Source: a virus
Virus record (IMG/VR): IMGVR_UViG_3300025910_000175
Coordinates: 1 to 25,795 of that record
Strand: one strand, 5' to 3'
DNA length: 25,795 bases
Shown here: in pieces, positions 1,757 to 25,032 of the stretch
Position numbering within the stretch: the first letter of the stretch is position 1
How the letters are laid out: each line of letters opens with the position of its first letter
Notes under the pieces: model-generated
Database searches by the model: none
Told to the model about the DNA's origin: nothing
The model's input: only the letters and a program-made list of their open reading frames with translations
Program-made: the position numbers and the translations under genes

Positions 1757-3100
1757 ATGTCGTTGGGGTCATGGGCGGACGCAGCGCTCCACCAATACTA
1801 TGAGGAAGTCCAAGAGCTGCACACGCTCGTGGGCCGGGCCTCCCCACTCGTCGACCGACTCTCCAAGTCGGCCGTCGAAGGCGCCGTAACTGGCGAATTT
1901 TTCACGCTTTCTGGCGGCATGGGCATCGCAGGCGACCTCGCCTCGGCCCAGGAAGTGGCCAATCAGGTCGGCACCAACGGCGCGGGCACTGCCCCGGGCG
2001 CCGGGTCGCACGACGGTGAGTGGCTGCTCCCCACTGGTCAAATCGAGACGTCCCTGCGCATCAAGTACAAGGACCTCGTTGCCGGCAAGACGAACAAGGG
2101 CGCGTATCTCCGCAACCTGACCCACGCCACCGACAAGCACGGCGAGTACTTCGGCGAACGCTTCGCCCAGGTCATCCTCGGCTCCAGCGGCTACCGGTTC
2201 TCCCTCGCCGACCTGACGACCTTCGCGACCGGCGTGATTACGCTGCTCGACTCGGCGGGTAACGTCGACCCGAACAACATTGCCAACTTCTACAAGGGCC
2301 AGGTCCTCGTCGCCTCGGCGAACGAGGGGACTTCGTTGTCCCACACCCTGCTCCCGAGCAACATCGCCGCCCAGCGTGCGTACGTGCTCTCCGTCGACCG
2401 AGACGCCGGTACCCTCGTGGTCTCGGACTCGCCCAACGGTGCCCCGGAAATCCCCGCGGGCTGGGGCGTGGCCGGTGACAACGTGTCGATTTTCCCCCTC
2501 GGCCAGTTCAAGCCCACCCTCCCAGGCTCCACGCTGACGAACAAGCTGTTGTGCCAGACGCTGTCGGACTGGATTACCCCCACGGTCGCGACCGACACGT
2601 TCGGTACGGTGGACCGCTCGGCGGACTCGGCGCTCTCCGGCGTCCGTATCCCCACGACCGGCCCCATCGGCGCGCTGTCCCCCGAGCACAAAATCGGGTT
2701 CGCCAGCTCGTACATGCAGTCCCGCTACGCGGGTCGCAAGGCCCTGACGTTCGTGGCCCAGTCGGAAGTCTGGTTCGGAATCGTCCGCTCGCTGCACGCC
2801 CAAGGCCTCGTGTCCGACATCGGCGCGATGCTGACCGGTGGCGCCCGCTCCGTTCAGGTCGCCGGTGTCAACGGCATGTGCGAAATTATCGCCGAGCCGC
2901 ACCAGGACCCGACGTTCATCTACGGCCTGGACCTCCCCGAAATCATGATTCGCCACCTCGACGGCCTCCCCGGCGTCGCGAACGCGGACGGCCTCGAAAT
3001 GCTTCGTCAGGCGGATTCGAACGACCTGGAGTTCCGGCTGATTTGCTTCCCCCAGCTCATCGTCCGGGAGCCCTGGCTCCACTGCCGGTTCGCGGTCTAA
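1757..3100 (+). CDS. Major capsid protein (candidate)
   Basis: A 447-residue protein with no catalytic motif. Reasons for calling it the coat protein: it is the first gene behind the strongest promoter, it has a hairpin-capped leader, its length is right for a P22-like/HK97-fold coat protein, and small beta-rich genes follow. Internally it has an N-terminal helical stretch (about 1-45), a segment rich in Lys, Tyr and Gly (about 100-150) that could form an extended loop, and a C-terminal half of mixed helices and strands (about 300-447), an architecture compatible with the HK97 fold. ATG start with AAAGG ten nt upstream. Unusually, it lies on the strand opposite the portal and scaffold genes. 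I cannot match it to a named family by eye. Confidence 0.7.
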   Translation: MSLGSWADAALHQYYEEVQELHTLVGRASPLVDRLSKSAVEGAVTGEFFTLSGGMGIAGDLASAQEVANQVGTNGAGTAPGAGSHDGEWLLPTGQIETSLRIKYKDLVAGKTNKGAYLRNLTHATDKHGEYFGERFAQVILGSSGYRFSLADLTTFATGVITLLDSAGNVDPNNIANFYKGQVLVASANEGTSLSHTLLPSNIAAQRAYVLSVDRDAGTLVVSDSPNGAPEIPAGWGVAGDNVSIFPLGQFKPTLPGSTLTNKLLCQTLSDWITPTVATDTFGTVDRSADSALSGVRIPTTGPIGALSPEHKIGFASSYMQSRYAGRKALTFVAQSEVWFGIVRSLHAQGLVSDIGAMLTGGARSVQVAGVNGMCEIIAEPHQDPTFIYGLDLPEIMIRHLDGLPGVANADGLEMLRQADSNDLEFRLICFPQLIVREPWLHCRFAV

Positions 3101-4734: not shown

Positions 4735-5487
4735 GTGCAGTCCAAGACCCTGACCCAAATCATCGCCGAGGTGCGGTCGGCCAGTGACACCCAGTCCCTG
4801 ACCGACCGACACCCCGACGCCGACCTGACCATCGCCATCAACGATTCCATCCGGTCGTTGCGCGGACTGGTGACGTCGCGCGGGTTCCCGTACTTCCTTT
4901 CCGTGACGACCGCGGCCACCCTCGCCGGTACGCGCGTGACCGGCGAGACGTACTCCGTCGTCCCGTGGCCGGCTACAGCCATCCAAATCCACGGCATCGA
5001 CGTCGGGTTCAACTCCGCGGGCAGTGATTTCGGCAACTGGTATCCACTGAAGCCTATCACATGGGCCCAACGCCGGGACACCACCCAGGAATGGCGGACG
5101 AATCTGTCCCCCGGCACGGTGGGAGCACAGTATGTTTTCTCCGTGCTTACGCTCCCCCAGGGCTCCGGCGCGTCTACCACGCCGGGCACTATCGCGTTGT
5201 TCCCCGCGGCCGACTCGGGACAGTACAAAATCTGGTTCTTAACTGAGTTTACGGACCTGACGTCCTCGGATGTTTTTTTGGCACTCCCGGATTGGCACGA
5301 GTGGATAATCCAGGACGTGGTCGAGAAACTGGCCCAGCGTGATGACGACCAGCACGAGACCGCGGGCATCGCGGCCAAGCGCCGCGCCGAAGCCGACGCC
5401 CGCATGATGGAGTCCGTCCCGCGGGTAGTATCCGCCGGCCCCCTACGCCCACGCCGCAACGGCACGCGGCGTAGGTGGTCGATGTGA
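4735..5487 (+). CDS. Head-to-tail adaptor protein (gp4/gp11-like, putative)
   Basis: A 250-residue protein from GTG 4735 with GGAG about 10 nt upstream. It opens with a helix followed by a 'DADLTIAINDSIRSLRGLV' pattern (about 28-47), has a beta-rich middle ending in 'ALFPAADSGQYKIWFLTEF', and closes with a long charged helix ('PDWHEWIIQDVVEKLAQRDDD...AAKRRAEADARMM') and an Arg-rich tail. This helix-beta-helix plan, the size, and its place before the nozzle match the ring protein that sits under the portal in P22-like (gp4) and T7-like (gp11) phages. It would dock on the portal and hold the tail. The family is recognised by pattern, not by a catalytic signature. Confidence 0.65.
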   Translation: MQSKTLTQIIAEVRSASDTQSLTDRHPDADLTIAINDSIRSLRGLVTSRGFPYFLSVTTAATLAGTRVTGETYSVVPWPATAIQIHGIDVGFNSAGSDFGNWYPLKPITWAQRRDTTQEWRTNLSPGTVGAQYVFSVLTLPQGSGASTTPGTIALFPAADSGQYKIWFLTEFTDLTSSDVFLALPDWHEWIIQDVVEKLAQRDDDQHETAGIAAKRRAEADARMMESVPRVVSAGPLRPRRNGTRRRWSM

Positions 5488-7085
5488 CTGCTCCACGGCG
5501 ATTCGTCCCCCCGTCTAAGCTGCCCGATGAACGGGCGCTACTGACCACGTTCCGGCAGGTCGCGGACGCGTTCGACCACCCGGGCGTGCCCCGACAGCGG
5601 TACCGCGACCGGCGCGGACACCAAGTCACCGCCCAAGCCGGCGACCTGGTGCGCGTCCAGACCAACGACACCGTGTTGCTGCCCGCCCCGCGCCCGTGTG
5701 CGGGTCAGACGGTCACAGTCGTGGTCGAGGGTACCCCCGTGACCGTCAAGGCCACCACGGGGCTCGTAGACGGCGCGGCGTCGGTCTCCGCCACGACCGT
5801 GGGGGCGTACCATTTCGTCGCCACGAACGAGGGCTGGTGGCGCGGGCCGGGCGGGGCCGCTGGCGCGACCGGGCCGACGGGGCCGACTGGGCCGACGGGG
5901 CCCACTGGGCCGACGGGCCCGACGGGCGCCACCGGAACCTTCACAGGCGCCACCGGCGCAGCCAACGGCTATGCCAGCTTGCACGTCTACGCCAACGCGA
6001 GCTCTGCGCTCGTGGGCACGACGTTCCTCGGGGTCACGGTCGAGTCCGCGGCCACCTATTCAGCTTCGACCGATATCGATACCGGCAACTGGTTCGATGT
6101 CGTCACGGTCGGGTCCGGCGGCGGCGGCGCGGGCGGGGCGCCCATCTTCCAATCGCAGGAAAACGGCTCTCCCGGCGGCGGCGGCGGCTGTTACAACCGG
6201 CGGACCTTCGCGCGGTCGGCGTTGGTGACGGCGCTCCCCATCGCCATGACCATCCCACTCGGCGGGGCGGGTGGTGCCGGCCAGACTAGCAACTCTGGCG
6301 CTGGGTTGCGTCCGAACGTGGGCGTTAATGGCGGTACTACGTCGTTCGGCTCGCTGCTCGTGGCCTTCGGCGGCGGCGGCGGTAACGGCATGAGTGCGGT
6401 GCAGGGTGTATCGTGCGGCGGCAGCGGTGGCGGCGTACAGGGGCCTGGGGTGGGGGCTGCGGCGGCGTCTACTGGCTCCAACCTGGGGGGTGAACCGTCA
6501 TTGGCCGCGACCAATACCACGCTGGTTCAAAATGGGTTCGGTGGAGCCAACGCCAATACCGCAGTTGACGGTATGGCCGCGTGCGATGGGGGCGGTTCCG
6601 GAGCCCCGAACCGCACGTCCGCCACCACGACCGGGCGCGCGGGGGGGCGGGCTCTGCACGGTGGCGGAGGCGGCGGCGCGGGCGGCGGATGTAGCAACGG
6701 GGTTCCCGCGACCAACGCGGCATCCGGAGGCAACGGGGGCCTTTCCGGCCCATCCACAACCGCACTAGTGGCGTCGGCACAGTCTGGGCTCGGCGGCTTA
6801 GGCGGCACCGGGGCTGGTAATGGAACCAGTAACCCCGGCGCAGACGGTGCCATCGGCACGATGGACCACGCGGGCTCGGGCGGTGGTGGTGGCACCGGCT
6901 CCAATCGCACCAGTAGCAGCAACGGTACGTCCACGTCCGGGGCGGGCGGCGCGGGCGGATTCCCCGGCGGTGGCGGGGGCGGGGGCGGTGCGGCCTCGTC
7001 CTTCGGCGGCACGAACGCGGCCACGTCCGGCAAGGGCGGCAACGGCGGCGACGGCATCATCATCGTGATGGGTCTGCCGGCCTAA
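5475..7085 (+). CDS. Collagen-like and glycine-rich receptor-binding fibre/adhesin
   Basis: A 536-residue protein from GTG 5475, overlapping the adaptor by 13 nt. Residues 1-45: charged helical N-terminus, likely the virion anchor. Residues 50-123: a beta domain ending in 'HFVATNEGWWRG', typical of phage fibre heads. Residues 127-161: collagen-like G-X-Y repeats including six Gly-Pro-Thr in a row. Residues 165-212: small beta region. Residues 213-536: extremely Gly-rich with runs of 4-8 Gly separated by Ser/Thr/Asn loops. A glycine-rich lattice with variable loops is the design of polyglycine-II adhesins such as T-even-like gp38, where the loops contact the receptor. Host recognition is therefore the likely role. 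It could instead be a non-tail surface fibre. Confidence 0.7.
   Translation: MVDVTAPRRFVPPSKLPDERALLTTFRQVADAFDHPGVPRQRYRDRRGHQVTAQAGDLVRVQTNDTVLLPAPRPCAGQTVTVVVEGTPVTVKATTGLVDGAASVSATTVGAYHFVATNEGWWRGPGGAAGATGPTGPTGPTGPTGPTGPTGATGTFTGATGAANGYASLHVYANASSALVGTTFLGVTVESAATYSASTDIDTGNWFDVVTVGSGGGGAGGAPIFQSQENGSPGGGGGCYNRRTFARSALVTALPIAMTIPLGGAGGAGQTSNSGAGLRPNVGVNGGTTSFGSLLVAFGGGGGNGMSAVQGVSCGGSGGGVQGPGVGAAAASTGSNLGGEPSLAATNTTLVQNGFGGANANTAVDGMAACDGGGSGAPNRTSATTTGRAGGRALHGGGGGGAGGGCSNGVPATNAASGGNGGLSGPSTTALVASAQSGLGGLGGTGAGNGTSNPGADGAIGTMDHAGSGGGGGTGSNRTSSSNGTSTSGAGGAGGFPGGGGGGGGAASSFGGTNAATSGKGGNGGDGIIIVMGLPA
5871..5924 (+). repeat. Six 9-bp tandem units encoding Gly-Pro-Thr
   Basis: Six consecutive in-frame 9-nt units, each coding Gly-Pro-Thr (GGG/GGC-CCG/CCC-ACG/ACT), flanked by degenerate Gly-Ala-Thr units. 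They encode a collagen-like triple-helix segment of the fibre. The near identity of the units suggests copy-number change by slippage. Confidence 0.85.
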
Positions 7086-7089
7086 CCGG

Positions 7090-7098
7090 TGCTATACT
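7090..7098 (+). promoter_or_regulatory. Extended -10 promoter before the SPFH gene
   Basis: TGC plus TATACT, preceded by CCGG, with the GTG start at 7108 exactly 9 nt beyond the -10, the same spacing as at 56-71. No good -35 is visible at 17 nt (GGGTCT). The predicted transcript is leaderless or has a 1-3 nt leader. It sits in the only gap between the fibre gene and the SPFH gene. Confidence 0.65.
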
Positions 7099-7107
7099 AG
7101 GACTACT

Positions 7108-7641
7108 GTGCTCGATAAACTAGTCGAAACGATAATTTCCGTCGTGCACTGGTTCCGATTCTGGGCCATATGCGGCGCCGAGTACCGCGGTGTGATGTGC
7201 CGTTTCGGCCACCCCGTGCGCGACCTGCGCCCGGGATGGAACTGGAAGTTACCTCTCGGCGTGGAATCCGCGGCCCTCGCCGACGTGCGGGTGTGGGCCG
7301 ACGTGCTCCCAGCCCAGTCCCTCCGCACGACCGACGGTGTTACGCTGGTGGTGTGCCTGATGGTGTCCCACCAGGTGGTCGACCCGAAGGCCTTCCTTTT
7401 CCAGGTGTTCGATTCGAATAACAATTTCCAGGACGTAGCCGCAGGGCAGCTCGGCGCCGCCGTGATGTCGGCCACCGCCGCCGAAGTCTACGACGGCACC
7501 GTCCTCCGAAAGGTCCGCCGAAAGGTCGTCACCGCCGCCAAGGCGTGGGGACTAGTGGTACACAATGTTCAATTCACCAGCTGCGCCGAAGCGCCCGCGT
7601 TCCGGCTATTCGGCATCCCCGGAGGGGGCCCCCATGAGTAA
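7108..7641 (+). CDS. SPFH/Band 7 (stomatin-like) membrane protein
   Basis: A 177-residue protein from GTG 7108. Residues 5-23 form a hydrophobic membrane helix. The rest is a compact Band 7 domain: YRGV (26-29), RFG (32-34), an 'LRPGWNWKLPL' segment (40-50) matching the PGlh-k-P signature, 'TTDGVTLVV' (74-82), a 'VVDPKAFLF' segment (90-98), an Ala-rich helix (110-127) and AWGLVV (146-151), the usual WGi/WGv motif. SPFH proteins form ring or cage oligomers on membranes and organise lipid domains or regulate proteases such as FtsH (HflKC, stomatin, prohibitin). The C-terminal coiled coil of full-length stomatins is absent. The next gene overlaps by 8 nt and is also a membrane protein. Its promoter is separate from that of the structural genes. 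The function in the phage is unknown. Confidence 0.8.
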   Translation: MLDKLVETIISVVHWFRFWAICGAEYRGVMCRFGHPVRDLRPGWNWKLPLGVESAALADVRVWADVLPAQSLRTTDGVTLVVCLMVSHQVVDPKAFLFQVFDSNNNFQDVAAGQLGAAVMSATAAEVYDGTVLRKVRRKVVTAAKAWGLVVHNVQFTSCAEAPAFRLFGIPGGGPHE

Positions 7642-17600: not shown

Positions 17601-18727
17601 ACCTCCTGACGAAAGACGAGTTCAAGGCCGGGTCGCACCTGTCGACGGCGTACTACCCGGATACGGACTTCGGACCCCACGAGCTGCGGTTCACGAAAGT
17701 CGATGCGGCGGGTGGGCTCATCGGAGTCAACCCGGCCGAGATGGAAATGGTCATCCCGCCCGACGCCCGGTTCCGCGTCACGGGGCGGTACGCCAACCCG
17801 GAGACGGGGAACTTCACGTTCACGCTAGAGGAAATCCCGGACACCCGCGCGGGCGGTCTAAAGGATGTCGGCTATCTGGCACTACCGGCTGTCGGCGCCG
17901 GGGCCCAGGCCTTGGCCGGGGGTGGCGGGGACGAGTCCGGCGGTGGGGACGACGGCACGTCGGGCGCGTCGATGGGATTCATCGGCGCGGCGGCGATGTT
18001 CAAGCAGGCCCGCGGGCGCCTCGTGGCGGACGTCGCGCGGCGACTGTTCTCCCCGACGGTGGGGCGGCTAGCGACCAAGCTCGCGGCGCGCGCGGTCTAC
18101 TCCCGGGCGGACCTGGCCAAGCGGCGCCAGGAGTTCCAATCGTGGCAGGAGAACCCCCAGGAACTCGTCGACCGCGTGGCCGAGGGGTTCCGCGACGTGC
18201 CGCCCGGCGACGCCCAGGTAGCCACCCACGCCGGGGTGTTCCGGGCGGCGGCGTTTCTGCGCGAACGCCTCCCCCAGACCACGAAGTCCAACCCAATGTC
18301 GATGCGGGAACTCCCCGTGTCGACCGAGCAACTCGTGAAATACGCCCGGTACGAGGACGCCGCGCTACGCCCCCGCGACGCCTGGGCCGACGCCGCGGCG
18401 CGGGGGCACATTTCGCCGGAACTACTCGAAACGACTGAGGCTTTACACCCGGACTTACTGGCCGAAATCCGCGTGGCGGCGTACATGACGGTGCGCGACG
18501 AGGGGCCCCCGGTCTCGGTCCAGGGCCGGCTCCAATACGCCGCGCTGTTCGACGGCGAGGGTTCGTTCGCGGACCCCGCCATGGGGAAGGACGTGGCGAC
18601 CATGGCGGCGCTCGCGTACGAGCAGCAGGTCCCCACGAAGTCCGGGGGCGGGCCCACGTCGAGCGGCAACGTGTCGCACGTAGCGGCCGCGGTGCAGGCC
18701 CCGGCGGGGTTAGCGCGTCTGGGGTGA
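14627..18727 (+). CDS. Giant internal/ejected virion protein with ADP-ribosyltransferase domain
   Basis: A 1366-residue protein from ATG 14627, 3 nt after the glucosaminidase. N-terminus (1-60): a short 'PKTGEVVVFDEADA' beta unit seen in phage internal proteins. Residues 80-220: Gly/Ala-rich amphipathic helices. About 220-500: charged helices. About 518-552: glycine-zipper hydrophobic stretch. About 620-740: Pro-rich linker. About 800-860: second Gly/Ala hydrophobic stretch. About 887-1065: ADP-ribosyltransferase fold with the R-S-E signature: Arg981 in LYRYV, Ser1006-Thr1007 in HLSTAYY, and E1038-x-E1040 in 'EMEMVIPPDARFRV'. The ExE spacing is that of arginine-specific enzymes. C-terminal 300 residues helical. 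This suggests a protein ejected with the DNA that forms a membrane channel and modifies a host protein, comparable in concept to T4 Alt. Substrate unknown. Last gene before the terminator. Confidence 0.75.
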   Translation: MADLYLKDPKTGEVVVFDEADAQGAANAGYQPVDQATYAKARQAEAASMGQGEAVKAGLLQAPADYSKSTEFLSKVVSGATFGLGAPADPESAAYAQRYQTEHPYAAAGAEMLGQAPAMLLGGAAGSAVRGAAEAGGGLLARAGGVAADYGINAAVGGAQMEAERARTAGDDFSFTDAAIAGVGAEVLGRGAAWGISKGVGGARNLVARAGRDAVAADAERTLSKGGWVGDYRTAQHADVYHDQLADLGAKDLDTLETATAEVGRQDKKRARIMRSVVERPAAQHEINVASVEGLQRLRGALADELESAPSGPAKRLAKQLDDRIAALEETPRGKKLWRILDENRQALQEYRQDLHQAYDTNPGSAWLSREGLAAIDAAEEATRNALLREDAWGEAAARMQREYNVPFHEKWFPARKTVLSDLHFATGKDAQGFTTYRGEPGKLRKFLTGLGGTSPDTHRARELFTQYLDGAEAIARAGEKDSPKAAREALEAVRRLRKNMANATFINAAAARTAERGALASAGATVAGAAVGGAVGGAGGAVLGGAAVRGAKLGTWFGQVAHRFKVFHGTAESMAELLAKDALPPARTAAEELSERLTGDILDAPFPKAESLRAPADTGALAGQPQRAVGVAAPPEPPGPGVFPGPGQVGRQDTPRRPAGMEAITPQAQRDVGAAPPPPTRGGGGWTPMAAPSSLEGDLERLGGGESQLPSVREGAEVPLPGEAHVNETPTFPTPYRTEGAADLEARLAPHAGAQSREAARLTALTEGEFAHVVDGLNAAGQRAPDGTLLGDFLRSHADELKSFGLIAAGTGAGAAAEYAENDGHAGYAGAAAGGLAALGLSGRLGKALLLGARFEASEAGKAEATAIVNKAMHSLPPPPEQVTTHYYGSMVGTVDDPSGKLAGLKRMFEVTRDAARHLEPEEQHAISEWVGTSSPIKYEQRTGLQLAHRADDAPLAPAFESAMDKLTVTNPTKHGDLYRYVHLEDSGLADLLTKDEFKAGSHLSTAYYPDTDFGPHELRFTKVDAAGGLIGVNPAEMEMVIPPDARFRVTGRYANPETGNFTFTLEEIPDTRAGGLKDVGYLALPAVGAGAQALAGGGGDESGGGDDGTSGASMGFIGAAAMFKQARGRLVADVARRLFSPTVGRLATKLAARAVYSRADLAKRRQEFQSWQENPQELVDRVAEGFRDVPPGDAQVATHAGVFRAAAFLRERLPQTTKSNPMSMRELPVSTEQLVKYARYEDAALRPRDAWADAAARGHISPELLETTEALHPDLLAEIRVAAYMTVRDEGPPVSVQGRLQYAALFDGEGSFADPAMGKDVATMAALAYEQQVPTKSGGGPTSSGNVSHVAAAVQAPAGLARLG

Positions 18728-18892
18728 CGGCTCCGGGTCGTCTTTACCAGGACACGAAGCCCGGGCGGCCGATACTGACGCCCGGGCTTTCGTGTAAACC
18801 AGCCCGCACCGTGTGCAGACTTGCCAGGGCAGATTAGCAGTTGTACGAGCGCGTTTGAGGGGGAGTTGTTCCGGCTGGTGAGGCTTATTCAT
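18710..18892 (-). CDS. Tiny Cys-motif protein (possible)
   Basis: A 60-residue frame starting at ATG 18892, overlapping the end of the small-terminase-like gene. It has a basic N-terminus, then WQVCTRCGLVYT (CxxC, about residues 23-34) and a third Cys near 47 (ASCPGK), suggesting an incomplete zinc knuckle. A promoter-like TGGACC-17-TACTAC with TGC before the -10 ends 8 nt upstream of the ATG. Against it: the frame runs through the terminator hairpin and ends inside the opposite-strand gene. It is more likely real than not, but weakly supported. Confidence 0.4.
   Translation of the reverse strand: MNKPHQPEQLPLKRARTTANLPWQVCTRCGLVYTKARASVSAARASCPGKDDPEPSPQTR
18752..18795. terminator. Bidirectional terminator between converging operons
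   Basis: ACACGAA-GCCCGGGCG (18752-18767) pairs with CGCCCGGGC-T-TTCGTGT (18779-18795), a 16-bp stem with one bulge and an 11-nt loop. It begins 25 nt after the stop of the giant virion gene and faces the end of the minus-strand packaging operon. T-tracts are short (TTT on each side), so efficiency is uncertain. It lies within the tiny minus-strand Cys-protein frame. Confidence 0.7.
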
Positions 18893-19385
18893 GCCCTGGT
18901 GTAGTAGCACCCGGCGCGGGCGGGGTCCACCCCGCCTCCAACAGTATCTTATCGAGCACCGCCGGCCGGGAGAGCACCAGCTGCCGTACCATCTCGGCCT
19001 CGGCTTCCGCGTCGGCGTCCGACGGGCGTAGCGACGCGGCCGACGCGTTGCGCGTGGCACGCGGACCCCACACGTCCGGATGGCGGAGCTGCAGCCACGC
19101 GATGGCGGCCCGCCAGTCCACCGCGGCGGCGGACTTGATGGCGTTGATGTGGGGTAGTTGCTGACCCTCCTCCTGGGCCACGAACACCCGCGCGAAGTCG
19201 CGATAGGGGTTCGTCGCGCCGGGGGAAAGCCCCATCTTTAGCCAGAGGTCGAGGGTGTCCTCCGAGATGCCCACGCACCGTGCGCAGGCCTCTTTGAACA
19301 GCCCCGAACGGGCCGCGGCCAGGAGCTGGTCCGCCAGGGCGGGCGTCAGCTCGTGGCCGGCGGGGGCGAGCGCGCCGTCAGTCAT
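18885..19385 (-). CDS. Terminase small subunit-like DNA-binding protein
   Basis: A 166-residue protein from ATG 19385, overlapping the previous gene by 8 nt (ATGACTGA). Residues 17-50 form a helix-turn-helix of the type found in phage small terminases and related regulators: 'LLAAARSGLFKEACARCVGISEDTLDLWLKMG'-like spacing with Ala/Cys at the turn and Ile40-Ser41 before the recognition helix. Next comes a 'YRDFARVFVAQEEGQ' helix (61-75), then 'INAIKSAAAVDWRAAIAWLQLRHPDVWG' (80-107), also typical of this group. The acidic C-terminal part (115-166) may contact the large terminase. It would recognise viral DNA for packaging. It is the penultimate or last gene of the packaging operon, well away from the large subunit. 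A transcription regulator is the alternative. Confidence 0.65.
   Translation of the reverse strand: MTDGALAPAGHELTPALADQLLAAARSGLFKEACARCVGISEDTLDLWLKMGLSPGATNPYRDFARVFVAQEEGQQLPHINAIKSAAAVDWRAAIAWLQLRHPDVWGPRATRNASAASLRPSDADAEAEAEMVRQLVLSRPAVLDKILLEAGWTPPAPGATTPGHE
18901..18929 (-). promoter_or_regulatory. Weak leaderless-type promoter inside the small-terminase-like gene
   Basis: On the minus strand, TGGACC, a 17-nt spacer ending in GGGTGC, then TACTAC, 8 nt before ATG 18892. It matches the GGTGCTA core of the other promoters but lacks the final T of TANNNT and is inside coding sequence, so chance is possible. Confidence 0.3.
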
Positions 19386-20103
19386 ACGCTACGAAGTAGA
19401 TTTCCTTCGACGACACGAGCGCGTAATAGCGTCGGGTGTACTGGCCATCTGCGCCGCGGACGACCCTAACCAGGGAAGTGCACATGTACGACGGAGAGAA
19501 CGCCACGACGTCGCCCCGGGCTACGTCGCACTTGACGTCCGGGCCCGTGCGTACGACCCGCGCGTACTGCAGCGTGACCGAATCGCGCGGGCGCGACCCG
19601 GATTCCTGCGGGTTGTCGCGGTTGGCCGCGGCCGCACCGGTCGCGAGCAGCGAGTCCGGTGGCAGGATGGGGGACGAGTTGAACGCGTACTTGCGCATCG
19701 CCGCGTCGTCCCGCTCGACCAAGATGACGTCCTGGCGGGGAATCAGCTCCCCGTCCTTAACCACCGCCCACACGAACCGTGCCGGCACGATGGCCGACTC
19801 GACGCCATCGAACGACAGGAACGCGGAGATGCCGTTGGCTGAAATCCCCCCATCGTCGCCGCCGATGTACACGACGACCCGCTGGCCGGGTTCGAGCCCC
19901 GGCGTGGCCGACGCCACGACCTCCAGCTCCTGCGACGTCTCGGACGTCGTCAGCCGGTCGTCCAGGAGGATGATGCCGCCCGCGGTGGTGAACCCCGTAG
20001 CCACGCCGACGCGTTGGCCGTGGTGGTCGACCGTGATGCCCTCGCCGTGGTCGGTGACACAGTCCCGGGCGACGATGTGATTGTTCTTGCAATAGGCGCG
20101 CAT
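19378..20103 (-). CDS. Tandem GroES-like co-chaperonin (two Cpn10 domains)
   Basis: A 241-residue protein from ATG 20103, 2 nt after the previous stop. Domain 1 (about 5-117): NNHIVARD opening strand; TTAGGIILLDD (39-49), the GroES mobile loop with hydrophobic tripeptide I44-I45-L46; 'EVVASATPGLEPGQRVVVY' (61-79), matching the V-a-V-G...G-D-x-V core; closing strand near 110-115. Domain 2 (about 119-241): 'ELIPRQDVILVERDD' (119-133), the counterpart of I-R-P-L-x-D-R-V; a degenerate loop SSPILPPDS (143-151); 'ARVVRTGPDV...GDVVAFSPSY' (181-206); and closing 'YALVSSKEIYFVA'. Single-domain phage co-chaperonins (T4 gp31, RB49 CocO) cap host GroEL to fold the coat protein; the doubled plan recalls chloroplast Cpn20. 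It sits in the head-assembly operon, consistent with capsid folding. Confidence 0.75.
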   Translation of the reverse strand: MRAYCKNNHIVARDCVTDHGEGITVDHHGQRVGVATGFTTAGGIILLDDRLTTSETSQELEVVASATPGLEPGQRVVVYIGGDDGGISANGISAFLSFDGVESAIVPARFVWAVVKDGELIPRQDVILVERDDAAMRKYAFNSSPILPPDSLLATGAAAANRDNPQESGSRPRDSVTLQYARVVRTGPDVKCDVARGDVVAFSPSYMCTSLVRVVRGADGQYTRRYYALVSSKEIYFVAYD

Positions 20104-20105
20104 GG

Positions 20106-20306
20106 TCAGTAAGCCTTCGGGTCTTTCTTCGAGAACGACTCGACGAACTCGGCCTTCGACTTCTTGGCCTTTTTCTTGCCCTTCGACGACTTCCCGGCCT
20201 TCGACATGGCGATGGCCACGGCCTGCTTTTGGGGCTTGCCGGCCTTACGCTCGGTGGCGATGTTGGCCGATACAGCGGCCTTGGACGAACCTGATTTGAG
20301 TGACAT
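20106..20306 (-). CDS. Small basic phage protein, 'SLKSGSSKA...[12 protein letters not shown]' family
   Basis: A 66-residue Lys-rich protein from ATG 20306, 3 nt after the previous stop. Its first half has a pattern I recognise from many environmental podoviruses: Leu-Lys-x-Gly-x-Ser, then '[26 protein letters not shown]' in shape (split here: [10 protein letters not shown], then [14 protein letters not shown]). The second half is a Lys/Ser tail ([11 protein letters not shown]). It is probably a nucleic-acid-binding or virion accessory protein. Its function is not established to my knowledge. Lies between the zinc-ribbon gene and the co-chaperonin in the head-assembly operon. Confidence 0.65.
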
Positions 20307-20309
20307 GGG

Positions 20310-20492
20310 TCAGTCTTTCGCGGGCAGGAAGGGCCCCTGCTTTAGTAGATACTGAGGATAGTACTGGTCATGAACGCAGGCCCCGCATGAGGCCCATTCG
20401 CGCTGGCGTTCGTTGTGATACACGGGGGCATCCCAGTAGTAGCCCCCGGCGCCGTGGCAGTTAGGACACTGCGATTGCTTCGGTTTCAACAT
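20310..20492 (-). CDS. Small zinc-ribbon protein
   Basis: A 60-residue protein with two Cys pairs: CPNCHGAGGYYW (about 9-20; CxxCxGxG, as in DnaJ-type zinc modules) and CGAC (about 36-39), which together could bind one zinc. Two starts are possible: ATG 20510, overlapping the scaffold stop as TGATG (coupling), and ATG 20492, which is preferred here because TGC-TAGGCT with TTGCGG 17 nt upstream ends 8 nt before it, fitting the leaderless promoter pattern. Next to a co-chaperonin, it may aid folding or assembly, but that is speculative. Confidence 0.6.
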   Translation of the reverse strand: MLKPKQSQCPNCHGAGGYYWDAPVYHNERQREWASCGACVHDQYYPQYLLKQGPFLPAKD

Positions 20493-20500
20493 ACCGATGC

Positions 20501-20529
20501 AGCCTAGCATCACTTGGACTGAGCCGCAA
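20501..20529 (-). promoter_or_regulatory. Internal leaderless-type promoter before the zinc-ribbon gene
   Basis: On the minus strand, TTGCGG, a 17-nt spacer ending TGC, then TAGGCT, with ATG 20492 lying 8 nt beyond. It overlaps the last codons of the scaffold gene. It would allow the zinc-ribbon, basic, co-chaperonin and small-terminase-like genes to be expressed apart from portal and scaffold. Confidence 0.45.
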
Positions 20530-21532
20530 TCCACTCGTCTTTGGTCAGCTTGCGGATTTTGCTCGGCGCCGTACCGGCCGCGCGTTCCGGGGCGCGGGCC
20601 CGCTTGGCCTTCGGCGCGGCGGCACCGCCGTCGGCACCGAACACCTTCGCGCGGCGCTCGTACTCCTCCCGCTCGCGTCGGACTACCCGCGCGGCTGCTT
20701 GCTTCACGGACAGCTTCGGCTCGCCGAGGTCCGGGTCGATGGAATCCCGGAGTGTATCCGCGACCTTAGCCTCCCACCCGTCGATTTGCCGGACGACGTC
20801 CTTGACGTCGACCTCATCGCGGAGGGTCTCGTGGAACGCGGCGTCCGCGCGGGCCGCGCGTTCGGCCTCCAGCTCGGCCAGGCGCGTGTCCTTCGCGGCC
20901 AGCTGGGTCGTCAGCGCCGGCACGCGGGGGTCTACCGACCCACGGGCCCGCACGGCCGCAGTCCAGGCCTGGTCCGGGTCCTGGTCCGTAAGCAGCGCCA
21001 CCAGCTCCAGCAGGGCCTCGGGCCGGCCCGACCGGGTGGCCTCGACGAGGCGAGACACGGGCGACCAGCGCTCGACGACGGTCTCGGCCTGGCGTAGCAC
21101 GCGGTCGCGCTCGGCGACGACTTTGGCCTCTTTCCGTTGACGCGCGGCCCACTTCGGGGTCTTTTCGTCGAATCCCGCGGGGTCCTCCCCGAGTAGGTCG
21201 GCGATGGTGTCCAGGTCACCAGCCCGGAGTGCCTGGAGGACCGCACTGGGGTCCGGGGCGGTACTGGAGGGTGTTGTCGCATTCGGCGGCGCTGGCGTGG
21301 CGTCGGTCGACCCGGCATTGGCACGCGACACAGACTTGCGCTTGGGTGCGGGGGGCGGGGAGTCCGCATCCCCCTCGGCATCGGGGGGCGGCGCGGCCGC
21401 AGCGAACTTGCCCGTCGCCGGGTCGCGGGGGGCTTTTGGGTCGGACGGGGTCTCCTCGTGGTCGTGTCGGGGGGCGTCAGACGACGGGGCGTCGGGCAGC
21501 TTGGCGATGAAGGCGTCGAAGTCGATGGCCAT
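20510..21532 (-). CDS. Capsid scaffolding-like protein
   Basis: A 340-residue protein from ATG 21532. Residues 1-100 are Pro/Ala/Asp-rich and disordered; 100-150 contain short helices (VLQALRAGDLDTIADLLG); 150-290 are long charged Ala/Arg/Glu helices likely to form coiled coils; the C-terminus is basic and ends in a helix, 'KIRKLTKDEWIAAQSK'. A disordered acidic N-terminus, helical core and basic terminal helix is the layout of P22-like scaffolds, whose C-terminal helix contacts the coat protein. It lies directly after the portal, the usual position. No protease motif is present. The function is inferred from composition and context. Confidence 0.65.
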   Translation of the reverse strand: MAIDFDAFIAKLPDAPSSDAPRHDHEETPSDPKAPRDPATGKFAAAAPPPDAEGDADSPPPAPKRKSVSRANAGSTDATPAPPNATTPSSTAPDPSAVLQALRAGDLDTIADLLGEDPAGFDEKTPKWAARQRKEAKVVAERDRVLRQAETVVERWSPVSRLVEATRSGRPEALLELVALLTDQDPDQAWTAAVRARGSVDPRVPALTTQLAAKDTRLAELEAERAARADAAFHETLRDEVDVKDVVRQIDGWEAKVADTLRDSIDPDLGEPKLSVKQAAARVVRREREEYERRAKVFGADGGAAAPKAKRARAPERAAGTAPSKIRKLTKDEWIAAQSK

Positions 21533-21632: not shown

Positions 21633-23621
21633 TCAGAGCCCGAGCGGACCGGATTGGCCGGCGGGCGGCGGGGGAGGCGGAGCCATCGCCGGGGCCATCC
21701 CAGGCGGGGCGGCTCCGCCGACGGAGCCCCCCAACCCGACGGACATGCCGGCCGAGCCCTGCACGGGCGCCGGCATGCCGAGTGCCGGCTGTGGCGCCTG
21801 GGGCGGGGAGACCTCAGCCGACATCTGGGCGGACAGCTCCGCGATGAAGTCGAGGAAGTACTGCAGCCGTTCGGTCGGGACCTCCGACAGCTCGGCTTCC
21901 ATCAGGGAGTCGATGACCTGCACCATGGCGTCGGCCTTGCGCATCCACGGCCGAGGACCCTGATAGAAATTCGGCTCGTTCAGTTCCTCGTCCTTCGACA
22001 TCAACCAGCGGTCGATTTGCCATGCCACCCAGCGCCGCTGGGTTTTGATGACCTTGGTTTCGCCCGGCACGTCGTAGTTCTCCAGGCACGCGATGTACGC
22101 CTCGAACGGAATGGCGCCCTTCTCCAGCAGCTCCTCCGCGTACTGGACGCGTTCCTCGGGAGTGTTCTTCTTTTCGGAGACGGGCTTGACCTGGACTTGC
22201 AGGGCCTCCAGGTCGAGGTCCAGGATGTCCTTCGCCTCGATTTCCTTGGAGAAAAACTCCCCGGTCCACTTGCGGGAGAACGCCGCGTTCTCTTCGTACA
22301 GCTTGCGCTGGGCCCGGAGCATATGCCGGGCAATGTCGACGGCGACCCACTGCACGTACGCGCGGTGGCCGGTGGCGTGGCGGTTGTCGAACCGCTCGCC
22401 GGCCGTGCGCTGGGCTACGCCGGACGGGAGTCCAGGTTCAGCCTTCGCGGCAGTGTGCATGTCGGCGATGCCGAGGGTCTCCGCGATGCCGGTCTCGTGC
22501 TCGTGGAGCAGCTCCATATCGATGCGGTTGAACGGCGCGGGGTTCTCCACGACGGGCTTGGCGTTCGGGTTCTTCAGCCGGATGACCTTGATGGTGTCGA
22601 TGACCGTCAGGTCGTTGATGTCCACCAGGTCCTTTTCGACCACGTAGTGGATTTGCTGGGCGTTGTCCGTGTGGGCCTCGTCGCACCGGAAAAGAATCTC
22701 GTTCGCTTTCAGGACCTCGTCGAACACGATTTCCATCATGGGCGTGGACCAGAACCCGGCCAGCGCCGGAGCCGTGTGCAAGAACGCGAACGGGGGCTCG
22801 TCCGAATCCCATTCCTCGTCCAGCAGTACCGTGCCGTTGCGGAGGGTGACCAGGTGTCGGCCGGGTTCGTCGCCCACGCGTACCGCCCAGGCCTCCCATA
22901 CAGGGACCATCTCGGCGCGCTTGGTGCGGCCGGTGAACGTCAGCCCACCCCGGTCCTTCCGGGACTCGACGGCTTGGTGGATGGCGGTTGAGTGCGAGGG
23001 GTACGAGCGGGCGAGCTTGTAGGGCGCCCACCACGTAACCTCGCCGAACGTACGGGGCGTGCCGTACGACAGCTCCGTATCGTCGAGGAACATGTCCAGT
23101 GTGTCGTGGAGCTCCACGACCACGCGGTCTTCCTCGGGCCAGGGGTAGATTTTCGCGGCCACGGACCCGGTCGCGGAGCACGCGATGCGGAGGCCCTGGT
23201 GGGCCAAGGCGTGCACGTTGGCATAGTTCCCCTGGCGCAGGTCGTACTCCGCGGACAGGATACGCTCGTTCAGCGTGACTTTACGTTTGAGCTCCCAATC
23301 CCCGTCGGTCACCATCAGTGCTGGCTGGGGCGCGTCGTTCGCGCCGATTTTGCCGACGTACGTCTCGACGAACTTGTACGAGTAATTCCGCGTCAGAGGG
23401 ATGTTGTCGTCCGTGCCGGACCGGGTATCCCGCCAGGAGAAGCGCGCATCTCTCGCAAAGGGCGTGTCCAAATTCCGCCCATGATAAAATCCAGCTAACC
23501 GCCTTGCTCTTGCGCGCCTCCATGTATACTGCTTGGAGTACTCGGTCTCCAGCTCCACGATTTTGTGAGCGGCCTCCTTAGAATCCCGCTCCCACCACGC
23601 CAGGTCCGGTTCGTATGCCAT
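21633..23621 (-). CDS. Portal protein
   Basis: A 662-residue protein from ATG 23621, 7 nt beyond a TGC-TAGAAT promoter. It has the features of large podovirus portals: an N-terminal helical and aromatic segment (about 1-60), 'NYSYKFVETYVGKIGANDAPQ' in shape near 78-98, a beta-rich wing with 'HDTLDMFLDDTELSYG' (about 172-187), a 'PPFAFLHTAP...GFWSTPMMEIVFDEVLKANEILFR' region (about 277-313) that corresponds to the stem and helical core, a long Lys/Glu crown helix (about 450-520), and a Pro/Gly/Met-rich disordered tail (about 610-662). It would form the dodecameric DNA channel at one capsid vertex and bind the terminase and adaptor. First gene of the packaging operon. Confidence 0.8.
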   Translation of the reverse strand: MAYEPDLAWWERDSKEAAHKIVELETEYSKQYTWRRARARRLAGFYHGRNLDTPFARDARFSWRDTRSGTDDNIPLTRNYSYKFVETYVGKIGANDAPQPALMVTDGDWELKRKVTLNERILSAEYDLRQGNYANVHALAHQGLRIACSATGSVAAKIYPWPEEDRVVVELHDTLDMFLDDTELSYGTPRTFGEVTWWAPYKLARSYPSHSTAIHQAVESRKDRGGLTFTGRTKRAEMVPVWEAWAVRVGDEPGRHLVTLRNGTVLLDEEWDSDEPPFAFLHTAPALAGFWSTPMMEIVFDEVLKANEILFRCDEAHTDNAQQIHYVVEKDLVDINDLTVIDTIKVIRLKNPNAKPVVENPAPFNRIDMELLHEHETGIAETLGIADMHTAAKAEPGLPSGVAQRTAGERFDNRHATGHRAYVQWVAVDIARHMLRAQRKLYEENAAFSRKWTGEFFSKEIEAKDILDLDLEALQVQVKPVSEKKNTPEERVQYAEELLEKGAIPFEAYIACLENYDVPGETKVIKTQRRWVAWQIDRWLMSKDEELNEPNFYQGPRPWMRKADAMVQVIDSLMEAELSEVPTERLQYFLDFIAELSAQMSAEVSPPQAPQPALGMPAPVQGSAGMSVGLGGSVGGAAPPGMAPAMAPPPPPPAGQSGPLGL

Positions 23622-23667: not shown

Positions 23668-25032
23668 GTGCTAGCGCCCCTGACTCGACTCCTCAAAATC
23701 CCCGAGGAGCGCCGCGCCCTCACGCCTCCGGAGTTACGATTCGTCAGTTCCCCCGCCAAGCGCCGCACAAACTGTTCCGGCCGACGCGCCGGCAAGTCGT
23801 TCTCCGTGACACTGTGGCTGGTTGAGCAATGGCGCCGGCGCCCCAACCAGTCGTCGATTTTCATGGCGCTGTCGCAGGAGTCCGCCATCAAAATTGGGTG
23901 GGACGCCCTACGGGAGTTCAACGACCGGTTCGGGTGGGGGGCGGTCTACAATGGCACAGACGCCACGTGGACATTCCCCAATGGTTTTACATTGTACTAC
24001 ATGGGGTGTAAGGACCGTCGTTCGGCCAACCTCGTCCGTGGCGTGCCGAAAATCCATCGCGTGGCCGTCGACGAGTGCGGCCAGATAGCGGACCCCCTGC
24101 TGGAGTACCTAGTCGTCGACGTGGTCGAACCCACGTTGGCCGACACGGACGGGGACCTCTGCCTGCTCGGGACGCCGTCGGATACGGGCGTGGGGTTCTA
24201 CGAGGATGAAATGACCGCGTGCGAGGAGGCCGGGGCACACTTCGCCTGGACCGCCGCGGAGAACCCATATCTCGAAAAGCCCGGGGGCCAGTTCATCGCC
24301 GAGGCCCTCGCCAAGCGGTTCGCCGGCAACGCGGCGAACGCCACGTTCCGGCGGGAGTACCTCGGCCACCGCGTGCAGGAGGAGGGCATCCTCATATACC
24401 GCCCGTGCGCGGACCTCGACGAGGGGTTCTATGAGCGGGCCCCGTCACGGGACAACTACACGGCCATGGGCATCGACATCGGGTGGTCGGACGGCGCGGG
24501 GCTGTCCGTGCTCCGGGCCCGCGACCCCGAGCCCGGGGCCCACATTCTGGAGTGCTACCGCGAGGCGGAACTCACCGTGCCGCGACTCGCCGCCATCGCG
24601 GAGCGGATGGTACAGGAGCATGACGTCACGGAGATATTCGTTGACGCGGCGGGGGGCGGGGGGCGGACGATATGCGAAACGCTCCGGGCGTCGTATGGCC
24701 TGGATGCGACGCCGGTCGACAAGCGCGCCCGTCGAATGCGTATCGAGCAGCTCCGGACCATGTTGGATGCGCGCACGCTACGGGGGTCCGTAGGTCGGTG
24801 CGCCCAGGTCCTGGAGGAGTGGCGGGGGTTGCCGTGGAACCTGGAGCGGGACAACCATCGCGAAGGGTACGTCGACGAATGCACCGACGCCACCCAGTAC
24901 GCGCTACAGGGTGGCGGGTTCACACAGCTCACGACCTGGGTGGTGGAGCCTACACCCGAGCAGGCCTACGCTGCTCGGGTGGCGGAAATCCAGCGGGGCA
25001 AGCGTTTACGAACGCGGTCCGGGCGGCGCTGA
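23668..25032 (+). CDS. Terminase large subunit (TerL)
   Basis: A 454-residue DNA-packaging motor. ATPase: Walker A G38-R-R-A-G-K-S44; Walker B 'RVAVDE' with D135-E136; coupling motif 'LLGTPSD' (167-172). Nuclease, RNase H-like: 'MGIDIG' with D270, 'IFVDAAGGG' with D326 and a third acidic residue in the 'DECTDATQYAL' segment (D407), the usual three-acid metal site. It would bind the portal, pump DNA into the capsid and cut it. GTG 23668 is chosen because it is 6 nt from a -10 element and the N-terminus is of normal length. It is alone on the plus strand between two minus-strand groups. The last 27 nt overlap a small gene on the other strand. Confidence 0.93.
   Translation: MLAPLTRLLKIPEERRALTPPELRFVSSPAKRRTNCSGRRAGKSFSVTLWLVEQWRRRPNQSSIFMALSQESAIKIGWDALREFNDRFGWGAVYNGTDATWTFPNGFTLYYMGCKDRRSANLVRGVPKIHRVAVDECGQIADPLLEYLVVDVVEPTLADTDGDLCLLGTPSDTGVGFYEDEMTACEEAGAHFAWTAAENPYLEKPGGQFIAEALAKRFAGNAANATFRREYLGHRVQEEGILIYRPCADLDEGFYERAPSRDNYTAMGIDIGWSDGAGLSVLRARDPEPGAHILECYREAELTVPRLAAIAERMVQEHDVTEIFVDAAGGGGRTICETLRASYGLDATPVDKRARRMRIEQLRTMLDARTLRGSVGRCAQVLEEWRGLPWNLERDNHREGYVDECTDATQYALQGGGFTQLTTWVVEPTPEQAYAARVAEIQRGKRLRTRSGRR

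Follow-up and report, generated by a model that had tools for sequence, protein, structure and literature searches.

In a soil-type phage, a minus-strand gene at positions 19378–20103 of the window encodes a protein in which two successive Cpn10-type domains are supported within one chain, a layout of the Cpn20 type. The window is the whole stretch of DNA analyzed, 25,795 bases of an IMG/VR virus record with 67.6% G+C. The gene runs from ATG to TGA, stop codon included, and specifies 241 aa. The first domain comprises residues 1–116 (positions 19756–20103) and the second residues 117–241 (positions 19381–19755). The favored reading, given a probability of about 0.72, is that of a Cpn20-like tandem co-chaperonin that caps the GroEL of the host to fold phage head proteins. 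A first-pass annotation had based two GroES-like units on three peptide strings, and these are all located in this open reading frame: TTAGGIILLDD at residues 39–49, ELIPRQDVILVER at residues 119–131 and SSPILPPDS at residues 143–151.

The tandem family is poorly recognized, being unknown to Pfam and below the cut-off in NCBIfam. A direct Pfam hmmscan of the 241 aa protein, PF00166 included, gave no match. The NCBIfam GroES model NF001530 aligns to residues 39–116 with an E-value of 0.0062, below cut-off, and the GroES of Thermus aligns in the right register in a single-sequence search with an E-value of only 0.77. Single-sequence searches in Pfam, PHROGs and PDB produced nothing decisive. Evidence for the two domains comes from profile comparisons. 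An alignment of 10 sequences, i.e., the window protein and nine homologues, was divided into halves, and each was compared by hhalign with a profile of 14 single-domain co-chaperonins from phages and plasmids. Half 1 matches with a probability of 94.3% (P = 9.9e-8) and half 2 with 92.4% (P = 5.2e-7). Column-shuffled controls, 60 per half, reach a maximum of 4.3% for half 1 and 1.2% for half 2, and 10 pieces of the portal alignment give 0.85% or less. Searched separately in this way, both halves bear out the earlier proposal of two successive GroES-like domains. With a plain HMM, the window halves score 10.2 and 7.3 bits, above all 322 shuffled halves (maximum 6.2), but most of the homologue halves, taken singly, are not above the shuffled ones. 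When the two halves are compared to each other by profile there is no match (2.4%), so the two are very old or of separate origin. A recent direct duplication of one half is unsupported for the same reason.

The nine homologues have 31–68% identity to the window protein. They were collected by way of the adjoining portal gene, which opened up the tandem family; searches with the peptide patterns of the tandem protein itself found near relatives only. The portals beside the homologues are 46–82% identical to the window portal, and the gene order around the tandem gene is kept down to the portal of 46% identity. The portal-scaffold-TerS block is the constant setting of the gene in related phages. 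Comparison of the gene with three relatives shows dN/dS values of 0.29–0.35 in half 1 and 0.21–0.32 in half 2. Because of these values and the presence of homologues of similar length at the same place in other phages, the open reading frame is a genuine gene under purifying selection rather than a frame open by chance. Neither of two scans of bacterial genome contigs detected a relative, thus no prophage or host is known.

The two ends of a 43,153-base relative carry an identical 60-bp direct repeat. Since this repeat lies inside the window (positions 18248–18307), the relative is a circularly assembled, complete genome, and its virus is practically that of the window. It is without GroEL and without a second Cpn10, and the best match of a single-domain Cpn10 profile on its genome is the tandem gene. 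Neither GroEL nor any other recognizable Cpn10 is present in the window record or in five related records of 42–44 kb, of which the complete genome is one. With no GroEL or single Cpn10 of the family's own, the tandem protein would therefore have to work with the GroEL of the host. A related record, L003, has an extra open reading frame between the co-chaperonin and TerS genes (positions 6674–7258 of that record) that is not in the window. It has a KIDGTN motif and is RNA-ligase-like, with an E-value of only 0.024 to NCBIfam Rnl2.

The gene is part of a minus-strand block in the order portal, scaffold-like protein, 74-aa open reading frame, 66-aa protein, co-chaperonin and TerS, in agreement with the earlier placement of the gene in an operon with portal and scaffold, to which TerS is now added. 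The portal (positions 21633–23621) is SU10-like, with an E-value of 0.0017 to Pfam SU10_portal that is below cut-off, and portals are found beside the homologues as well. The scaffold-like protein of 340 aa (positions 20510–21532) is so termed by position and composition; it has no significant family match in Pfam or PHROGs. The 74-aa open reading frame upstream of the co-chaperonin (positions 20310–20534, minus strand) has the sequence CPNCHGAG, which fits the DnaJ zinc motif CxxCxGxG, and CGAC further on. The 66-aa protein (positions 20106–20306) is basic and matches phrog_2423, a family without an assigned function (E = 3.1e-16). The co-chaperonin gene starts two bases past the end of this gene, and the ATG of TerS (positions 18885–19385; phrog_4102, E = 2.8e-14) lies inside the last codons of the co-chaperonin gene. 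Because of this short gap and the overlap, one message very probably serves for the translation of all three genes. TerL (positions 23668–25032) is on the strand opposite to the portal gene and diverges from it. TerL and TerS thus lie on opposite strands, one on either side of the portal gene, which is an unusual separation of packaging genes. Elsewhere on the plus strand, a 447-aa protein (positions 1757–3100) that is 59–84% identical in four divergent relatives has no match in Pfam or PHROG and is the probable major capsid protein. A plus-strand protein of 536 aa (positions 5475–7085), in which a glycine-rich domain comes after a collagen-like GPTGPTGPTG repeat, is probably a tail or surface fibre.

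The mobile loop of GroES is its contact with GroEL. The first loop of the tandem protein, TTAGGIILLDD (positions 19957–19989), aligns to the GroES sequence SAGGIVLTGS, and the motif G-[IL]-x-L, also written G-[IL]-[IVYF]-L, is retained in nine of the 10 aligned sequences. The exception is homologue L033, which can be aligned two ways. The description of this loop as standard therefore stands. The second motif, SSPILPPDS (positions 19651–19677), aligns to the same GroES segment and had been called degenerate. This is correct only in part: the GG is lost, yet nearly all homologues retain a hydrophobic pair with x-P-[DEG] after it. The homologous sequences are SPILAPD, SPIHVPD, SPLYAPD, SVIHAPG, SVLFPPE, SLLFLPE, SVLFAPE and RILVPGS; the motif differs between clades, and in homologue L021 even the hydrophobic pair is lacking. 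The dN/dS values between the window gene and its relatives are 0.08–0.57 in loop 2 and 0.18–0.32 in loop 1. This comparable constraint suggests that loop 2 is altered and not junk. In contrast to both loops, an insertion that separates strand 1 from loop 1 (residues 15–38, positions 19990–20061) is fast-evolving, with dN/dS of 0.5–2.2; it is mostly of pLDDT under 50 and mostly absent from homologue L011. A longer stretch follows the loop 2 motif. The loop together with this long insertion (residues 142–176, positions 19576–19680) has pLDDT values under 50 and is probably flexible.

Two AF2 models were made. Model 1, built from two sequences, is poor. Model 2, built from 10 sequences, is of moderate confidence (pLDDT 68.7, pTM 0.71) and has a strand order that fits two barrels. 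Its stretches of pLDDT < 50 are residues 18–42, 83–89 and 142–176, which cover all of loop 2 and the residues leading into loop 1. In a comparison of model 2 with viral models, the top three matches span the full query. These include A0A516L046 and A0A516LTQ1, and the third, 200 aa long, is the protein annotated as Cpn10 in Cellulophaga phage phi18:3 (E = 9.6e-6). The next 36 viral matches are mostly phage GroES or unnamed proteins of similar size. Results with PDB differ between the models: the top four matches of the poorer model 1 include Mtb Cpn10, T4 gp31 and human Hsp10, but no Cpn10 is present among the top 50 matches of model 2. The structural check proposed with the first-pass annotation thus gives a mixed result, with Cpn10 matches in the viral library and, for model 1, in PDB, and none among the PDB top 50 for model 2. 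The two domains are connected by a predicted hairpin (residues 111–131, positions 19711–19773) with strands at residues 111–116, 119–122 and 126–131. Residues D117 and G118 are invariant in all 10 aligned sequences and form the turn that links the last strand of domain 1 to the first strand of domain 2. In the GroES ring, adjacent subunits pair the last strand of one with the first strand of the next. Because the D117–G118 turn joins strands that neighboring GroES subunits pair, the fusion looks as if made for adjacent places in a ring.

The first-pass annotation held that known phage co-chaperonins are single-domain. This does not hold, as flavobacterial podoviruses, some of them marine, carry double-length co-chaperonins of 180–200 aa beside TerL and portal. 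The window protein is therefore real but not unique, double phage co-chaperonins being already in databases. One of them is gp096 of Cellulophaga phage phi18:3 (200 aa, phrog_13932), which adjoins TerL and portal; others are Flavobacterium elemo gp30 (180 aa), Cellulophaga phi38:1 gp089 and the versions in Calle_1 and Maribacter Panino. The phi18:3, phi38:1, elemo and Panino proteins carry the plain annotation "GroES" and the doubling is unremarked, and podovirus ctfjg026 has an unannotated double-length protein of 187 aa. The open-access literature, with subscription papers outside the scope of the search, yielded no description of a doubled co-chaperonin in phages. The aligned halves of the flavobacterial family match the Cpn10 profile with 84.7% and 96.4%. 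The phrog_13932 doubles resemble the window protein in that both adjoin terminase and portal, and phi18:3 is among the best structural matches. Sequence comparison gives a different result: halves of the two families compared by profile give about 1–3%, no match, and phrog_13932 does not match the window protein at E-values up to 1 or two homologues at 0.1. Since there is no sequence match, the two double families either share a very old ancestry or arose independently; descent of the window protein from the flavophage form is neither shown nor excluded by the profile comparison.

The two families also differ in their chaperonin complement. All six flavobacterial-type phages analyzed (L060–L065) encode a separate single-domain Cpn10, and five of the six encode a full GroEL close to it, whereas the family of the window has neither. 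This set of GroEL with single and double Cpn10 is like the Cpn60, Cpn10 and Cpn20 of chloroplasts. The GroEL of phi38:1 has been detected by mass spectrometry in infected cells (PMC13288928). In several jumbo phages of approximately 350 kb (L044 and others; CBB, GAP32 and SNUABM types), each genome has two GroES matches apart from each other.

Cpn20 of the chloroplast and apicoplast has two Cpn10 domains head-to-tail in one chain, as does the window protein, and the likeness noted in the first-pass annotation is correct to this extent. It does not extend to the loops. Apicomplexan Cpn20 keeps mobile loop, roof and sheet in both domains (PMC3542282), and a canonical loop is present in both, while the second loop of the window protein is non-canonical. 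For this reason the protein is Cpn20-like in layout only and is not classed as a Cpn20. The partner of Cpn20 is an organellar Cpn60, and there is no sign of common descent with the window protein. Cpn20 works with GroEL as a homo-oligomer, and Cpn20s are described either as tetramers with one domain left unbound on GroEL or in seven-domain rings with Cpn10 (PMC5780408, PMC3542282). Among phage proteins, T4 gp31 substitutes for GroES and, with the GroEL of the host, folds gp23, the capsid protein (PMC3012670), and its loop, longer than that of GroES, is linked to a larger cage (PMC6318259). T4 gp31 and RB49 CocO are phage co-chaperonins that act with host GroEL, take part in the folding of head proteins and have a loop longer than that of GroES (PMC3012670, PMC6318259), but unlike the window protein they are single-domain and form homo-heptamers. 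The GroES genes of Xanthomonas phage PBR31 and Phage DSL-LC05 adjoin TerL, portal or scaffold, like the window gene. Their products, annotated as GroES, differ from the window protein in having one domain, and that of PBR31 is directly recognized by Pfam and PHROGs.

Ring formation, GroEL binding, the roles of the loops and the substrate of the tandem protein are inferred, as are the altered symmetry of GroEL binding and the specialization in coat-protein folding suggested in the first-pass annotation. Two GroES-fold barrels would be joined almost without a linker by the DG beta-turn, with the final strand of the first barrel pairing with the opening strand of the second as adjacent subunits of the GroES ring do. 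Three or four tandem chains would give six or eight domains in a ring, or seven if one host GroES joins. This ring would cap host GroEL, as neither a GroEL nor a further recognizable Cpn10 is encoded by the phage. The canonical loop 1 would provide most of the GroEL binding, and the longer, altered loop 2 may bind more weakly, or may enlarge or re-shape the cage. Head proteins, the coat proteins of the phage among them, are the most likely substrates because the gene is very probably co-translated with portal, scaffold and TerS, and the protein would fold them as T4 gp31 does gp23. A more specific proposal is tentative: the two loops of each chain may be specialized, with loop 1 gripping host GroEL and the long loop 2 shaping the cage for a particular head protein, with no single-domain partner, and the Cpn20 layout may have been reached more than once by tailed phages. 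Somewhat more doubtful is a version of the main reading in which the protein works only in a mixed ring, where three tandem chains and one host GroES make up seven domains, an arrangement proposed for Cpn20 and Cpn10 of plants. The presence of a single-domain Cpn10 in every flavobacterial double-Cpn10 phage fits such a 3+1 arrangement, and plant and algal Cpn20 form seven-domain mixed rings with Cpn10 (PMC5780408, PMC3542282). However, the family of the window has no phage single Cpn10, so that a mixed ring would have to rely on a host GroES that is very divergent, and Plasmodium Cpn20 is active alone (PMC3542282).

Three alternatives depart from a tandem co-chaperonin that assists folding. 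It is unlikely that the protein keeps a GroES fold without a chaperonin role and acts in the head module, in assembly or in association with the portal, with no binding to GroEL. In the relatives examined, the place of the gene is indeed between the scaffold and TerS genes, and the sequence is far from any GroES and has an altered loop 2. Against this, loop 1, the GroEL contact of GroES, shows good conservation and constraint, and genuine phage GroES genes are found in this neighborhood too. A poison or brake, in which tandem chains would stall protein folding in the host by capping GroEL or by entering the GroES rings of the host, is improbable. A dominant-negative lid could well have chains of this kind, with one loop good and the other altered, and phages are known to take over host machines; against this, loop 2 is constrained, and the gene is in a structural operon, coupled to TerS, and not among takeover genes. 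The least probable alternative, now largely refuted, is that only one half is a Cpn10 and the other is an unrelated beta-barrel. It would account for single-sequence searches that match domain 1 only, but it conflicts with the hhalign result for domain 2 alone, with a full-length profile search in which domain 2 is the first to align to Cpn10, and with the full-length structural match to double Cpn10s.

The even number of domains against the seven-fold GroEL ring is an old puzzle from chloroplasts. Phage doubles represent simple test systems for it, with two sequence-unrelated families, one with and one without GroEL and single Cpn10 of its own. The phage doubles also suggest that the need to fold head proteins selects for changes in the GroES lid other than that seen in T4 gp31.
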